Positions 13,497 through 23,010 are shown, counted from the first letter of the stretch. The stretch is DNA of 64,000 bases from a bacterium (GCA_040755755.1 JBFLZW010000002.1:1-64000); one strand, 5' to 3'. Numbers and translations are program-made. The notes: a model not told the origin generated them from the letters alone.

Positions 13497-14393
13497 ATGC
13501 GCTTTCTCAATCCCAAGACGGATTTTGCCTTCAAGAAGATATTCGGCAGCAGGCAGAGTAAGGATATTCTGATTTCCTTTATCAATGCCATGCTGCGCTT
13601 CAGCCCTGAGCATGAGATTATCAACCTGACGATTATTGACCCTTATCAGGCACCACAGATCAAGGGAATGAAGGATACCTGCCTGGATGTCAAGGCCAGA
13701 AGCAAAGACGGCAGAGAGATTATCATCGAGATGCAGGTATTGAATGTGGCTGGCTTTGAGAAGAGGATTCTCTACAATGCAGCCAAATCCTATTCCAACC
13801 AACTGGATGAGGGAGACGATTACCCCAAGCTCAATCCGGTCATAGCCCTTACCATTACTGACTTTATCATGTTCGATGAGCCGAAGATCATCAGTAAATT
13901 CTGCCTCACGGAAAAGGATGATTTTTTCCCCTGTCTCAATTCCGATCTTGAGCTGGTATTCGTTGAGCTGCCAAAGTTTGATAAGACCGAAGAGCAGTTA
14001 GCCGATATCACCGACAAATGGCTATATTTCCTGAAGCATGCGCGCTCACTGGATATTGTCCCGCATACCCTGAAAGTCGAGAAGCCCATATCCAAAGCCT
14101 TCAAGATAGCCAATAAGGCCAACCTGACCCGTGAGGAACTTGATGATCAGGAACGGCGGGAGATGTTCATCCAGGACCAGCGGGGAGCAATTGCCAAAGC
14201 GGATGAACAGGGATTTAAGCGGGGACTCCTTGAAGCTATCTCCCTGGGGTTGGAGCTCAAGTTTGGCAGGGAATGCCTGCAACTTTATGATCGGATCAGC
14301 AGGATGGATTCAGTTGAACAGTTAGAAAAGATTAATGAAGCGATAAGAACAGCATCAAGCTGTAAGGAAATAGAGAATTTAATCTTAAGGTAA
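13497..14393 (+). CDS. Rpn-family PD-(D/E)XK nuclease / transposase-like protein
   Basis: 298 residues starting at ATG 13497 with a GGGAGCAGGAG site. It opens with MRFLNPKTDFAFKKIFGS, the hallmark of the Rpn / PDDEXK_2 family (recombination-promoting nucleases once annotated as transposases). The nuclease core is visible as LDVKARSKDGREIIIEMQV (Asp, then Glu-x-Gln after a beta hairpin, about 60-78). The C-terminal region (residues about 225-298) is charged and helical, with the ELKFGRE and DRISRMDSVEQL segments usual for the family. No inverted repeats or target-site duplication were seen, so mobility is not shown. It starts the accessory stretch that interrupts the AlkP neighbourhood. Confidence 0.85.
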   Translation: MRFLNPKTDFAFKKIFGSRQSKDILISFINAMLRFSPEHEIINLTIIDPYQAPQIKGMKDTCLDVKARSKDGREIIIEMQVLNVAGFEKRILYNAAKSYSNQLDEGDDYPKLNPVIALTITDFIMFDEPKIISKFCLTEKDDFFPCLNSDLELVFVELPKFDKTEEQLADITDKWLYFLKHARSLDIVPHTLKVEKPISKAFKIANKANLTREELDDQERREMFIQDQRGAIAKADEQGFKRGLLEAISLGLELKFGRECLQLYDRISRMDSVEQLEKINEAIRTASSCKEIENLILR

Positions 14394-14493: not shown

Positions 14494-14820
14494 TTGCCTA
14501 TAGATACGGAGATAAACCTTATCGTCAATACAATTATCGAGAGACTATCTCCTGAAAAAATCGTACTTTTTGGTTCTTATGCCTATGGACAACCTACTCA
14601 GGATAGTGATCTTGACATTCTTGTAGTAGTTCAAAAGCATGATCAGCCAAGGTATAAGAGGGCACGGGAAATCAGAAAGTGTTTATGGGGTAAGGTTTCG
14701 GTTCCAAAGGATATATTAATCTATACGGTTGATGAGATACGGGAATGGGAAAATGTAAAACAGGCCTTTATAACCTCGATCTTGGAGCGAGGAAAGGTGC
14801 TGTATGAAAAAAAGGGCTGA
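14494..14820 (+). CDS. mntA: MntA-type nucleotidyltransferase antitoxin
   Basis: 108 residues from a TTG start preceded by AGGGAGAAAG. It is a minimal nucleotidyltransferase: FGSYAYGQPTQDSDLDILVV contains Gly27-Ser28, ten residues, then Asp39-x-Asp41, the GSX10DXD motif of MntA proteins that AMPylate and neutralise their HEPN toxin. The stop overlaps the start of the HEPN gene by 17 bp, typical for type VII MntA/HepT modules. The order (antitoxin first) and sizes match. An intact, probably functional module is inferred. Confidence 0.85.
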   Translation: MPIDTEINLIVNTIIERLSPEKIVLFGSYAYGQPTQDSDLDILVVVQKHDQPRYKRAREIRKCLWGKVSVPKDILIYTVDEIREWENVKQAFITSILERGKVLYEKKG

Positions 14821-15205
14821 CCTGGTAAAAGAATGGTTCACCAAGGCTGACCATGATTTAATAGCAGCAGGATCACTGCTCAAAGCAGAAGAACCATTAA
14901 ACGATGTAATTGCATTTCATTGCCAGCAGGCAGTTGAAAAGTATCTTAAAGGATACATGATACATCTTGGTTTGGCATTTACCAAAACTCATGAAATAGG
15001 AGGTCTTATAGCCGTAATAGAGGGAAAAGACCCTGAGATTACATACCTTAAAGAGGGGGCTGATGCACTTACTGATTATGCTGTTGAGATAAGATATCCG
15101 GAAAGTCACCTCACACCCTCTCAGGAGGAAATTAAGGCTGCTATTGAAATTGTACAAGAAGTTCAAGCTTATGTGAGAAGTAAGATAAGCGAGGCAAAAA
15201 GCTGA
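14804..15205 (+). CDS. hepT: HEPN-domain toxin (HepT-like RNase)
   Basis: 133 residues. HEPN hallmarks: WFTKADHDLIAA at 11-22, FHCQQAVEKYLKGY (38-51) and the catalytic R-X4-H motif RYPESH (Arg97 to His102), which in HepT cleaves RNA, notably tRNA, and is silenced by AMPylation of a nearby Tyr. It overlaps the upstream MNT gene and is translationally coupled to it. No anomalies. Confidence 0.85.
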   Translation: MKKRADLVKEWFTKADHDLIAAGSLLKAEEPLNDVIAFHCQQAVEKYLKGYMIHLGLAFTKTHEIGGLIAVIEGKDPEITYLKEGADALTDYAVEIRYPESHLTPSQEEIKAAIEIVQEVQAYVRSKISEAKS

Positions 15206-15218
15206 AGAGGTGTTCGCT

Positions 15219-15413
15219 ATGTTTGGAAGCAAGGTAAAAATCGATAAGGACTTGTTAAAACGCGCCGAAGAATATGCCAGCCGCAAAGGTTATCCTTCAG
15301 TAGAAGAATTCATCAGTCATGTGCTGGAAAAGGAAATGCGGGCGGAAGATGAATCCTCCGAATCGCAGGAAGAATTGAAGAAAAAATTACAGGGATTAGG
15401 CTATATTTCCTGA
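15219..15413 (+). CDS. small ribbon-helix-helix-like protein
   Basis: 64 residues from ATG 15219 (GAAGAGG site 9-10 bp upstream); an in-frame GTG at 15210 is too close to the site. It begins MFGSKVKIDKDLLKRAEEYA, then RKGYPSVEEFISHVLEKEM, the strand-helix-helix pattern of Arc/CopG-type proteins, and ends LKKKLQGLGYIS. A similar small protein occurs near AlkP-superfamily genes in some anaerobes (from memory, not checked), so it may belong with the phosphodiesterase pair and not with the adjacent HEPN/MNT genes. DNA binding is a guess. Confidence 0.6.
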   Translation: MFGSKVKIDKDLLKRAEEYASRKGYPSVEEFISHVLEKEMRAEDESSESQEELKKKLQGLGYIS

Positions 15414-15448
15414 TAGCAGGCTTTATCGCTACGCTCGTGTAGAGAGTA

Positions 15449-17296
15449 ATGTTAGCAAGAAAGGCAGAATTAATGCCTAAAGAAGATCAGTTAGGTAATA
15501 AATGCTTTCTCGCTTTACCATTTACCCAGAACTTTGTTCCCGTGCGAGAGGCTATTATTGCAGGTGCAAAGCAAGCCGGGTTTCAGGTTGTATCTCTCGA
15601 TCAAGGTCCCGTTTTACCAAGCGGTACCATTCGAGAAGCAATTATCGGCGAACTCACGCAGGCTGATTGCATTATTGCTGACATAACGGATCGCAATCCC
15701 AATATTTTTTTTGAATTAGGTCTGGCACAGGCAATGGGCAAGGGATTGCTTCTTATATCTCGAGAAAAGAACTTCAATGATATACCATTCGATCTTCGAG
15801 AATTCCGGGTAATTATTTATAGTTATGATTCAGTAAGCCTTGACAGTCTATCAAAAAAAATTAGCCTTTCTCTTCGCGAATACCGTCGCTTTCCTCGCCC
15901 TTCCATTATTTATCCTGGGTTTTCATATTCATCGCCATTCTTCATTGAGTGGGAGCTGTTGAGCGAAAGAGAGGTGGAGAACCTTTGTCGTGAGCTATTG
16001 GCACAAATGGGATTTCAGCGACTTGAATGGGGTAAAATTTCACCGGAAGTTGATTTGGTTGCGGAAATTCCAAAAAAAGATCCTGATGGCTATGAATATC
16101 GAGAGCTCTGGCTAATTTCAATGGGACTTCACGCGCCAGTTGAAATTTTGCTGGAGATAATTACTCATGATCCTGATTTTCTTATTCATCGTGTAAAAAA
16201 ATATTCAGAGCAATTTGATAAATATTTTAGCAAAGCCATTGAAGCCCCAGTTACGTTCCTCTTTATCACTTACCGCAAGGATTCGAAGCTAGAGGAATTT
16301 AAAGAACTTCGTGAGCGCCTTGAGAAACGCCGTCAAAAAGGGCTGCCTGGACACAACCTCCGTATTCGGGTTTGGGACCAGGAATACCTTACTTCTCTCA
16401 TCCATCGATTTCCACAAATCGGGTATAAATACTTCTCCGACCAGGGAAGAATTCGTTCTAAAACGAGAAAGTCCTATGAGGAATTATACAAAGAGAATTC
16501 TAACTTATTGGCTAATCAAACAAAACTTATTACTGACCTTGAAGGAGAGAAAAACAGGAGAATACGTGCTGAAAGGGATGCGGTCTGGAAGGATATCTCC
16601 TTTTCCGCAGCCCATAAAATCGGTAATCCTATCTTTGCTATAGAAACTGATCTCGATCCATTAGTTAAAAGGATTCGAGAGCAAAGAATTGATGAGGTGG
16701 AAGAAGTTGTAAAAAATATTCATTCCTCAGTCGAAAAGGCAAAAGCATTCGTTGAGCAGTTCAAATCCTTAGCACGTGCTCAAGAAATCAAACCAATTTC
16801 TACTCTTTTATATCCTATCCTCGAAGATGCATGTCGTTCTCTCTGTAGCAAAGATATCTCGTGCAAAATAGAATGCTCACCAGAATTGGCTGTCCTGGCA
16901 GACCCTGAGAGATTGGCCGAATGCTTCGATGAATTGGTTGCGAATGCGGCACATTGGTTTGATAAGCCAGAAAAAAAGATTGAAATAAAGACTGTTTATC
17001 CAGTTCCAGAACCGTTGCCGAGTTTTGTTGATTCCAGTAAGATATACGTTTTAGTCCATGTAAAAGACAATGGCTGCGGGATTCCAATTCTTAACAAACA
17101 AAAAATCTTTGATGCCTTCTTTACTACCTATGACCATGGTACAGGCCTGGGTTTAGCTTTGGTGCGACGTATCATTGATGGACATGGAGGCGGGATCATT
17201 GAAACTGGCATTCCTAATCAGGGAGCTGATTTTGAGGTTTACCTTCCTCTTCCTGATCAGAAGAATAATGAGAGCAAATCTTCTTTGAATATTTGA
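15449..17296 (+). CDS. TIR/deoxyribosyltransferase-like domain fused to a histidine kinase
   Basis: 615 residues (ATG 15449; ATG 15473 with AAAGG upstream is an alternative start). Three parts are visible. Residues about 17-150: an NDT/TIR-like Rossmann-type domain with CFLALPF, DCIIADITDRNPNIFFELGLA and Glu89 at the position of the catalytic glutamate. Residues about 165-330: a region with restriction-endonuclease-like character (REVENLCRELLAQMGF, then VDLVAE), of uncertain fold. Residues 345-605: a coiled coil, then a histidine kinase with H-box FSAAHKIGNPIFAIE (His389), N-box ECFDELVANA (Asn499), and G boxes VKDNGCGIP and GTGLGLALV. No membrane segment, so a cytosolic sensor. It ends just before its response regulator gene. 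The N-terminal domain may bind or cleave a nucleotide or NAD; that is inference. Confidence 0.85.
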   Translation: MLARKAELMPKEDQLGNKCFLALPFTQNFVPVREAIIAGAKQAGFQVVSLDQGPVLPSGTIREAIIGELTQADCIIADITDRNPNIFFELGLAQAMGKGLLLISREKNFNDIPFDLREFRVIIYSYDSVSLDSLSKKISLSLREYRRFPRPSIIYPGFSYSSPFFIEWELLSEREVENLCRELLAQMGFQRLEWGKISPEVDLVAEIPKKDPDGYEYRELWLISMGLHAPVEILLEIITHDPDFLIHRVKKYSEQFDKYFSKAIEAPVTFLFITYRKDSKLEEFKELRERLEKRRQKGLPGHNLRIRVWDQEYLTSLIHRFPQIGYKYFSDQGRIRSKTRKSYEELYKENSNLLANQTKLITDLEGEKNRRIRAERDAVWKDISFSAAHKIGNPIFAIETDLDPLVKRIREQRIDEVEEVVKNIHSSVEKAKAFVEQFKSLARAQEIKPISTLLYPILEDACRSLCSKDISCKIECSPELAVLADPERLAECFDELVANAAHWFDKPEKKIEIKTVYPVPEPLPSFVDSSKIYVLVHVKDNGCGIPILNKQKIFDAFFTTYDHGTGLGLALVRRIIDGHGGGIIETGIPNQGADFEVYLPLPDQKNNESKSSLNI

Positions 17297-17310
17297 AAAG
17301 GAGAAAAAAA

Positions 17311-18405
17311 ATGGCTCGTGTTTTGATTGTGGATGATGAGATTGAAAATCTTAATTCACTTAAGCGCGCGCTGGGAGATATGAATCCAGATTGGGATATT
17401 CTGACCGCCATGAATGAGACTGAAGGTAAAAGCATCCTGGAACGGCAGCTTATTGAAAAACAACCCGTAGACGTAGTTTTAACTGACCTGGTAATGGATA
17501 GTGAACAAAGCGGCATGAACATTTTACAGGAAGCAAGGCGACTGGATCCACTGATCATGGCAATTTTATTCACAGCAAAAGAAAAAAGCCTCGACCGCTA
17601 TGCAGCATTTGATATTGGAGCTTTTGATGTTGTCGAAAAAAATATCCGTGGTACAACTGCGGTACGGGAGATAAGCATTAAAACAAGTGCAGCTCTCCGC
17701 TATAGAGAATGGTCCCAACGAATCAATTTTTTACGCAAATATTTTGATCCAAAGGTATTTGATACTATTGAAAAAGATCCCTCACTCCTATCAGTGAGAA
17801 GGCGGACTCTTACGATAGCTTTCTGGGACATAAGGGGTTTCTCGCTCTTATGTGAGATTCTGAAAGCGCATTCGGATCTTATAGCTGGTTTTCTTAAAGA
17901 TTACTGCGAAGCAGCCGCTAAAATAATTTTCGATAATAATGGTGTACTTGATAAATTCATCGGTGATGGGATTATGGCGCTGTTTGGTGTCCTCAACCAC
18001 AAGGATGACCAGGGAAAGACTGATGCTATTGCAGCCATTCAAGCAGCCATTACCTTACGTTCCAAGTTTGATGAGATTTCAAAAAAATGGCTGAAGCAAT
18101 GGCAGCTTTATGTCCCGGATAAGATCAACATAGGTCTCGGTTGTGGAATACATACCGGGGAGGTACTTGTTGGAAATGTTGGGACCGAGTTCAGAGATCA
18201 GTTTACTGCGCTCGGCCCGCAGGTAAACTTTGCCTCAAGAATTGAATCCCGTTCTAAATCCGGACAGATTCTCGTTTCTCAATCTACAGAAGCACGGATC
18301 AAGGGAGTGATTGCCACTTCGAAAGACAGCGAAATCTCTGACATTAAAAATATTCCCGGAGTGTTTGATTTATTTGAGGTTATTGAAGATAAACTAAGCG
18401 CCTGA
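17311..18405 (+). CDS. response regulator fused to class III adenylate cyclase
   Basis: 364 residues from ATG 17311 (AAAAGGAG 8-10 bp upstream, just after the kinase stop). Residues 1-125 are a receiver domain with the acidic DDE at 8-10, phosphoacceptor Asp59 (LTDLVMD) and Thr88/Lys90 in FTAK. Residues about 165-345 are a class III cyclase: metal ligands Asp173 (FWDIRGFS) and Asp219 (DKFIGDG), purine-recognition Lys215 and Thr299 (the Lys/Thr pair of many adenylate cyclases), and transition-state Asn306 and Arg310 (VNFASRIE). All catalytic residues are present, so cAMP synthesis controlled by phosphorylation from the upstream kinase is a strong inference. No cAMP receptor gene is adjacent. 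Confidence 0.92.
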   Translation: MARVLIVDDEIENLNSLKRALGDMNPDWDILTAMNETEGKSILERQLIEKQPVDVVLTDLVMDSEQSGMNILQEARRLDPLIMAILFTAKEKSLDRYAAFDIGAFDVVEKNIRGTTAVREISIKTSAALRYREWSQRINFLRKYFDPKVFDTIEKDPSLLSVRRRTLTIAFWDIRGFSLLCEILKAHSDLIAGFLKDYCEAAAKIIFDNNGVLDKFIGDGIMALFGVLNHKDDQGKTDAIAAIQAAITLRSKFDEISKKWLKQWQLYVPDKINIGLGCGIHTGEVLVGNVGTEFRDQFTALGPQVNFASRIESRSKSGQILVSQSTEARIKGVIATSKDSEISDIKNIPGVFDLFEVIEDKLSA

Positions 18406-18493
18406 AGAGAGAATCCAATCTAGTGGATACAAGTAAAGAGGTGCTATACTATTTAAGTACACATTGGGTAATATCCAAAAGGAGAAATCCATT

Positions 18494-18745
18494 ATGGCTA
18501 TTATTGAGAATATGACCTTGTCGGAATTGAAAGAAAAGTTGAATTCATTACAACTACCTGGTGATACAGATTTAGTTGTAACTATTGAAAAAAAGGAAGA
18601 AACCAAGAAAACCTGGGATAAGCAAAAGGCTTTGGAAGCTATGAAAAAGCTGAAAGGTTCGGGTAATGGCAGGCTTGTTGATGCCCTGCTCAAAGAACGT
18701 AATATAGAATGTAACAAGGATAATCTCAAGGAAACATCATGCTGA
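18494..18745 (+). CDS. antitoxin-like small protein without a toxin partner
   Basis: 83 residues from ATG 18494 with AAAGGAG upstream. The N-terminus (NMTLSELKEKLNSLQLPGD then LVVTIEK) and the positively charged helical end (KALEAMKKLKGSGNGRLVDA) resemble VapB-type antitoxins that precede PIN toxins. Here no PIN gene follows; the next gene, overlapping by 7 bp, encodes a membrane protein. It may be the survivor of a toxin-antitoxin pair or a separate regulator. The identification is by general resemblance. Confidence 0.5.
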   Translation: MAIIENMTLSELKEKLNSLQLPGDTDLVVTIEKKEETKKTWDKQKALEAMKKLKGSGNGRLVDALLKERNIECNKDNLKETSC

Positions 18746-22086: not shown

Positions 22087-23010
22087 CTATATCTTTTCCA
22101 CATCTTCAGCAAAAGAATATACTTCGATCCCGGCCCCTGCGGCTATGTCCTTTGCTTTATCATCTACCATTGGTGAGATGACTATCTTCCGGTTAGCCTT
22201 ACATTCATGTCGCTTCTCGTAATATTTGATCTTTCGCTCAAAGGCATACATATCTGCCTTACTCATGGAAGACTTGATCTCACAAATGATCAAGAGCCCG
22301 TTTTTTATGATCAGATCGAGCTCAACCTGATCTGGATGGCCAAATACCTCTCCCTGGTCATCAAACTCAGTAATATTGAGTACCTGGATATTGAAAGTAT
22401 CTTTGAGGATCCCTGCCAGAGCGTTGCGGAATGAAGCTTCCGTGTGGAGCCCCCAGCGGGCACCAAGTGCTCCGATCGACTGATCATGTTTGCGGTTTAG
22501 CACCTTGAGCTCTTCAAGTACCCTATCAATAACTTTCTGGTTTTCCCACCACTTTTTGTTCTGCTCCTCCCATTTTCGTTCATTGGCTTCCCATTTTCGT
22601 TCATTGGCTTCCCATTTACGGTCATTAGCTTCCCATTTACGTTCATTGGCTTCCCATTTACGGTCATTAACTTCCCATTTCTTGACTTGCTCTTCCCATT
22701 TACGTTCATTGGCTTCCCATTTACGGTCATTAGCTTCCCATTTCTTGACTTGCTCTTCCCATTTACGTTCATTGGCTTCCCATTTACGGTCATCAGCTTC
22801 CCATTTTTGCCTCTGCTCTTCTCTATCCCTTTGGAGCTCATTAAGTATACGGTCAAACCGATCTTCGGTTTCGAGTTTTCCGGCATAGTACTGCGAGGAA
22901 AGCCGCAGGATAAACCGTGCTATTTCCTCATCGGTCTGCATTATTTTGGGTAATTGCTCTCTTATTATCTCTTTAATTTCTTCGATTTCCATGAATAAAC
23001 CACCATCCAT
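22087..23010 (-). CDS. DUF3782-type coiled-coil protein with C-terminal nuclease-like domain
   Basis: 307 residues (TTC-context ATG at 23010; Met7 at 22992 is an alternative start). The N-terminus (EIKEIIREQLPKIMQTDEEI) is followed by a long coiled coil made of thirteen near-identical 7-residue units (KWEANER, KWEANDR, KWEEQVK), about residues 63-155. The C-terminal domain has the PD-(D/E)XK pattern: Glu in LHTEASFRN, Asp in ELDLIIKNGLLIICEIKSS with the Glu-x-Lys, about 210-260. Such DUF3782 proteins are common in filamentous and uncultured anaerobes; the activity is not established. Copy number of the repeat is likely to vary. Confidence 0.8.
   Translation of the reverse strand: MDGGLFMEIEEIKEIIREQLPKIMQTDEEIARFILRLSSQYYAGKLETEDRFDRILNELQRDREEQRQKWEADDRKWEANERKWEEQVKKWEANDRKWEANERKWEEQVKKWEVNDRKWEANERKWEANDRKWEANERKWEANERKWEEQNKKWWENQKVIDRVLEELKVLNRKHDQSIGALGARWGLHTEASFRNALAGILKDTFNIQVLNITEFDDQGEVFGHPDQVELDLIIKNGLLIICEIKSSMSKADMYAFERKIKYYEKRHECKANRKIVISPMVDDKAKDIAAGAGIEVYSFAEDVEKI
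22550..22812. repeat. 21-bp tandem repeats coding for heptads
   Basis: About twelve to thirteen units of 21 bp (minus-strand sense: AAATGGGAAGCCAATGAACG and variants) encode the KWEANER/KWEEQVK heptads. Units recur in higher-order blocks of three, suggesting duplication of 63-bp segments. Confidence 0.85.

Follow-up and report, generated by a model that had tools for sequence, protein, structure and literature searches.

A gene pair in the window (the whole 64,000-nucleotide stretch of bacterial DNA analysed here, GCA_040755755.1 JBFLZW010000002.1:1-64000) raises the question of what two N-terminal domains might do for a histidine kinase. Domains of the TIR-like and NDT-like kinds are known from nucleotide enzymes and from effectors of phage defence, and Mrr domains from restriction, and here relatives of both precede a kinase core whose neighbouring partner ends in an adenylate cyclase. 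An earlier note on this DNA had described the pair and left the order of action undecided between an N-terminal domain that senses a nucleotide or NAD change and a kinase that gates a hydrolase, with cAMP as the output. The answer that we favour, and consider probable, is an intracellular kinase that senses a nucleotide- or NAD-type ligand and, through phosphotransfer, turns on the synthesis of cAMP, the whole forming a horizontally mobile module. Both open reading frames lie where the earlier note had placed them, and the features of the locus are as follows.

15416..18735, + strand: insert with the pair and a small SAP-like ORF, missing at the same site of a same-genus genome (blastn, L059 and L060)
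15449..17296, + strand: soluble histidine kinase gene, 615 aa (ORF; HATPase_c 3.9e-17; full-length orthologs L005 and L006)
15500..15889, + strand: DNPH1/NDT/CAP12-TIR-like domain, aa 18-147 (weak PF05014, PDB profile matches, AlphaFold and Foldseek)
15932..16453, + strand: Mrr-type REase-fold domain, aa 162-335 (hhalign, weak Mrr_cat in both orthologs, AlphaFold topology)
16454..16597, + strand: long signalling helix from sensor to kinase, aa 336-383 (AlphaFold helix 343-379; 65% invariant)
16598..16786, + strand: phospho-acceptor helices (DHp), with His389 at 16613-16615 (HisKA below cut-off)
16796..17254, + strand: ATP-binding kinase domain, aa 450-602 (PF02518 3.9e-17; N, G1 and G2 boxes intact)
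17298..17303, + strand: Shine-Dalgarno AAGGAG of the cyclase gene, directly 3' of the kinase stop codon (17294-17296)
17311..18405, + strand: response regulator with class III adenylate cyclase output, 364 aa (PF00072 1.5e-13, PF00211 6.2e-17)
17311..17682, + strand: receiver domain, phospho-acceptor Asp59 (D8, D9, D59, T88 and K110 present and invariant)
17791..18384, + strand: class III cyclase domain (phmmer to CyaB and CyaC; adenine-specifying pair K215/T299)

The two genes are tightly arranged. For the regulator, the most likely start is ATG 17311, behind AAGGAG and 14 bases past the kinase stop codon, rather than TTG 17293, and this choice makes the receiver aspartate number 59, as the earlier note had it. 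For the kinase, an alternative start at ATG 15473, preceded by AAAGG, is equally good judged by ortholog length. The genes overlap outright in both orthologs, which makes tight coupling of their translation a conserved feature. The kinase itself appears to be soluble and cytosolic, with no evident membrane segment in its sequence.

Those orthologs turned up when 84,980 species genomes were scanned with exact peptide patterns, a method that distant copies may escape: the two full-length relatives are in a Sumerlaeota MAG (L005) and a Nitrospirae MAG (L006), where the kinases are 56 and 58% identical to that of the window and the regulators, directly next to them, 70 and 72%. Searches with domain alignments through 9 genomes of the window's own phylum, 396 of Nitrospirota, 40 of Sumerlaeota and broad samples of 386 and 367 genomes gave no further copy, and a search with the regulator alone in further genomes found no other copy of the pair. 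With two relatives found and none in these further genomes, the module is rare, patchy and kept together.

What the N-terminal domain might recognise can be approached through its relatives. It matches PF05014 weakly, below the Pfam cut-off, and PF10137 is matched in one ortholog only (E=0.0024). A profile of 17 relatives compared with the PDB picks out DNPH1/Rcl (1.2e-7) and the CAP12 TIR domain (5e-4), and Foldseek of the AlphaFold model (pLDDT mostly >88 over aa 20-140) returns Rcl/DNPH1 at target TM-scores of 0.57-0.73 as well as TIR-containing structures. The earlier note had allowed that structure prediction might reveal a different fold lacking a glutamate pocket; the model has a DNPH1/Rcl-type fold with the pocket, and the residue singled out there, Glu89 in FFELGLA, is invariant in 17/17 aligned relatives, as are N85, G91, A93 and A77. 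Glu89 aligns with the DNPH1 nucleophile, so that the domain has in common with DNPH1/Rcl and the NDTs both the fold and the nucleophilic glutamate, but the column of the DNPH1 catalytic aspartate (Asp69 of rat Rcl) holds Ile or Val in 17/17, Ile65 in the window kinase. A DNPH1-type hydrolase is disfavoured because this aspartate is absent, and its absence beside a retained Glu speaks for an NAD pocket of the TIR-like kind or for a role in binding; the domain seems to resemble a TIR pocket built around Glu more than it does a full deoxynucleotide hydrolase.

A fold with a conserved Glu in an ELG-type motif is also what the CAP12/Pycsar TIR domains (PF10137) and DUF4062 have, and in this respect the domain agrees with TIR-like NADases of the CAP12 and DUF4062 type, though the CAP12 profile matches are weak and DUF4062 is likened by description only. 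DUF4062 is described as similar to both TIR and NDT, with reported NADase activity and a reported role in phage defence (PMC13174449), which makes NAD a reasonable first candidate for ligand or substrate. Unlike either of these, the putative TIR-like domain here is part of a histidine kinase. The pocket around the invariant Glu89 could belong to an active enzyme instead of a binding site.

The middle region, which the earlier note had called endonuclease-like, keeps that description as a fold and loses it as an activity. Compared by hhalign with Mrr-type domains from other genomes, it gave a probability of 83.5 and an E-value of 8e-6, over a match that spans the first helix and motif II Asp202 (motifs I-II only); as controls, 5 other domain alignments and 60 column shuffles gave a probability of at most 1.4. 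Both orthologs have weak Mrr_cat matches, at the same residues in each, and the AlphaFold model has the expected helix-strand-strand-strand (alpha-beta-beta-beta) order. Foldseek of the model returned no significant match (the top weak ones include Mus81, EcoO109I, Shedu and SPARDA), and the REase-like profile, searched against PDB sequences, returned none. The N-terminal helix, the strand topology and the motif II Asp are thus common to this domain and to Mrr-type restriction endonucleases (PF04471), which differ in carrying a motif III Lys: in 3/3 orthologs Asp202 is kept and Met225 stands where the catalytic Lys is expected, the third strand reading ELW(L/F)(I/V)SMG, with I-S-M (223-225) in place of (D/E/Q)xK when motif III is aligned by eye. 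An active nuclease is disfavoured by this replacement, the domain is probably catalytically dead, and the simplest reading would be a nuclease fold reused for binding. Elsewhere, a protein at L035:5288-6178 (+) joins a REase-like domain with an apparently intact D...ExK motif (FSADILV...FEVKK) to a TIR/NDT-like domain; Pfam gives no REase match in it, and the intact domain is read from its sequence.

Beyond these two domains, the protein is a recognisable kinase. His389 lies in AAH(K/R)IGNPIFAIE, invariant in 3/3 orthologs, and Asn499, D540xG542 and G566xG are all present, the His and the N and G boxes being invariant. The HisKA match is weak and below cut-off; with HATPase_c at E=3.9e-17 and every catalytic box intact, the complete histidine kinase of the earlier note stands. 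Conservation is unevenly spread along the pair. Among the three orthologs, identity is lowest in the two N-terminal sensor domains (38-51%) and highest (75-78%) in the signalling helix, the His-bearing DHp helices and the receiver-cyclase linker; counted as invariant columns, the REase-like domain has 36% and the TIR-like domain 28%. Variable N-terminal domains on a conserved relay are the main reason for preferring a sensor over an effector: at an ortholog depth of three, this would be the usual pattern of a sensor kinase, not that of an effector under strict catalytic constraint.

The regulator has what it needs to complete such a relay. In its cyclase domain the metal ligands D173/D219, the specificity pair K215/T299 and the transition-state residues N306/R310 are invariant in the three orthologs, which, with Asp59 equally invariant, bears out the receiver and fully equipped class III cyclase proposed earlier. 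By phmmer the closest solved structures are Pseudomonas CyaB (3.6e-29) and the CyaC-type 1wc0 (7.5e-22); Lys215 is common to both and Thr299 to 1wc0, from Spirulina CyaC. Given the K215/T299 pair of CyaC, ATP is the likely substrate, and cAMP the presumed product. All three host genomes encode cNMP-binding proteins, none of them linked to the pair, which could act as cAMP receivers.

The earlier note knew of no described system with this set of domains, and that is half right: coupling a histidine kinase to a cyclase is of a known kind, and what is new is the sensor head. CyaC is a single multidomain protein with other sensor domains; the pair is two proteins with a TIR-like/REase-like sensor. 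In sequence the two are alike in joining a class III adenylate cyclase with the same K/T residues to histidine-aspartate phosphotransfer, and for Spirulina CyaC activation by phosphotransfer is on record (Kasahara and Ohmori 1999, as cited in PMC1183210). Rhizobial plasmid operons (L037, L038) encode a sensor kinase, a CheY-like protein and a REC-cyclase, and so also place a stand-alone REC-cyclase beside a kinase, but identity is about 26%, the kinase is different and the CheY gene is extra. In the part of the literature searched, no paper describes a kinase with a TIR-like/REase-like sensor head.

Put together, the favoured mechanism would run as follows. The DNPH1/TIR-like domain and the Lys-less nuclease-fold domain would together make up a sensory head inside the cell, responding to a ligand of the nucleotide or NAD type and perhaps to nucleic acid too. 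The state of the head would pass through the conserved signalling helix to His389, and the phosphoryl group would move from His389 to Asp59 of the co-translated regulator, a transfer between partners that we infer from the conserved operon pairing and, like the direction of signalling and the product, from what is known of these families. The class III cyclase would then make cAMP for the host's existing cNMP-binding proteins. What the sequences themselves establish is the domains, a kinase, receiver and cyclase with their catalytic residues in place, the conserved pairing and the mobility.

Relatives of the N-terminal domain in other settings bear on how widely it has been used. In Nitrospirota, a receiver is joined to a TIR/NDT-like domain with the motif NPNVFYE[LV]G at L031:5131-7150 (-), L032:4257-6300 (+) and L033:4958-5833 (-), one of these genomes being the host of the Nitrospirae ortholog L006. 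At L031 and L032 the gene immediately upstream, within the operon, encodes a histidine kinase, a short kinase-like fragment lies beside the gene at L033, near the contig end, and the L031 regulator is near a McrBC-like pair. There the domain has the look of a response-regulator output controlled by phosphorylation, which suggests that phosphorelay control of an enzyme-like domain is more general. Relatives also occur in temperate phages, with 317/422 pattern matches in viral contigs; the scan pattern demands the Glu, so its presence in the phage copies is no evidence of conservation. Across the viral contigs L061-L140 the domain is mostly stand-alone, in proteins of about 220-370 aa, and those stretches hold no receiver, kinase, cyclase or Mrr domain. 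A viral and plasmid search gave no copy of the full kinase, and a viral scan with the regulator gave no match. The Nitrospirota regulators and the phage relatives may keep a defence reading alive, without supporting it for the pair, for which a defence role is possible.

The most direct challenge to a sensor comes from these same relatives. The TIR-like domain might be an active NADase or nucleotide N-glycosidase effector in abortive-infection defence, which the kinase and cyclase gate or amplify, and the invariance of Glu89 across the 17 relatives, the matches to CAP12 and CBASS/Pycsar TIR profiles, the frequency of the domain as temperate-phage cargo, the reported activities of the related TIR-like/NDT-like family DUF4062 (PMC13174449) and the Nitrospirota output domain, once beside McrBC-like genes, all agree with it. 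Yet in the pair this domain occupies the place of a sensor, varies more than any other part and has Ile65 where DNPH1 has its catalytic Asp; its three hosts have no consistent defence neighbourhood, and no virus or plasmid searched has the full kinase, so that we consider an effector unlikely. Less likely again is a division of labour in which the dead REase-like domain senses DNA ends, modified DNA or protein and the TIR-like domain only oligomerises. The Mrr-type fold is indeed the more conserved of the two and lacks its catalytic Lys, and the L035 protein shows REase-like and NDT-like domains fused elsewhere, but neither Glu89 nor the NPN motif varies, which means that selection still acts on the TIR-like pocket.

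Both proteins match PADLOC profiles, for a TIR effector and for PycC, which would point to a Pycsar-like system with cUMP or cCMP as its product. The K/T pair of the cyclase is, however, that of adenylate cyclases such as CyaC, in an alignment to CyaC and CyaB rather than to the Pycsar residue columns (PMC11224242), the TIR-like domain sits on a kinase, and no cNMP-binding TIR or TM effector gene is linked: the scanned neighbours of the window pair contain no PF00027 domain, and the nearest on the contig is about 82 kb off. Membership in Pycsar was rejected on the missing receptor effector and the adenylate-type residues, and such a system is very improbable here. Rarity, with three genomes only, is what a chance fusion or an assembly artefact would predict, but the same kinase architecture with the same partner at 56-72% identity in three phyla refutes it, and this explanation can practically be dismissed; the single chance fusion that the earlier note had feared is excluded by a pair that is intact in each.

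The sensor kinase that we favour can also be given a bolder form, tentative and on balance doubtful, as an immune or stress circuit: a TIR-like reader or cleaver of NAD or nucleotides and a disarmed nuclease sensing nucleic acid would together drive the histidine kinase and so cAMP. If true, it would amount to intracellular innate-immune-type sensing through a classical two-component phosphorelay, with the Nitrospirota REC-TIR-like regulators as its mirror image. A sensory head built from both domains would tie parts of conflict systems to two-component signalling and cAMP, and because the module is small, soluble and self-contained, its ligand, phosphotransfer and cyclase activity are each directly testable.

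How the pair came to this site can be read from related genomes. In a genome of the same genus (L059) the flanking genes are about 80% identical to those of the window, and 15416-18735 is missing, with 58 bases in its place; the pair is absent from a genome of the same family (L060) too. The GC content of the pair is 40-44% in all three hosts, compared with about 49-55% in the surroundings, and in the window 41-42% for the insert versus 52-55% in the flanking housekeeping genes. Absence from relatives and low GC in every host indicate that the pair travels horizontally. The ends of the inserted segment have no convincing terminal repeat. Inside the insert, a small SAP-like ORF (18494-18745) overlaps the start of a 274-aa gene and has no counterpart beside the pair in L005 or L006.

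The neighbours had been taken earlier (HEPN/MNT, Rpn, antitoxin-like) as a hint of defence or stress, and this claim did not survive comparison. Upstream of the pair, 14494-15413 comprises a MntA/HEPN-type pair (NF047752 below cut-off) and then a 64-aa gene ending KKKLQGLGYIS. The same-genus genome has the MNT/HEPN genes and the 64-aa antitoxin-like gene at the same site without the pair, and the same-family genome has the small gene only; these genes are therefore older at the site than the insertion and are not evidence for defence. An Rpn family nuclease/transposase gene (13497-14393) is a separate insertion, missing from the same-genus and same-family sites, and insertions have recurred at the site that separates a phosphodiesterase-like gene from the 274-aa gene. 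The defence reading drawn from the neighbours was rejected on these grounds. Across the three hosts the three neighbourhoods differ, with no recurrent defence-gene location: L005 has an acetate-kinase-like gene, a MazEF pair 1.6 kb downstream and a mfd-like gene, and L006 an amylase-like glycosidase, a methyltransferase-like gene and a HDOD-like gene (all names but MazEF come from reading the sequences). Further along the window, at 22087-23010 (-), is a gene whose protein has coiled KWEANDRKWEANERKWEE repeats in tandem and a region at its C-terminus that looks nuclease-like.
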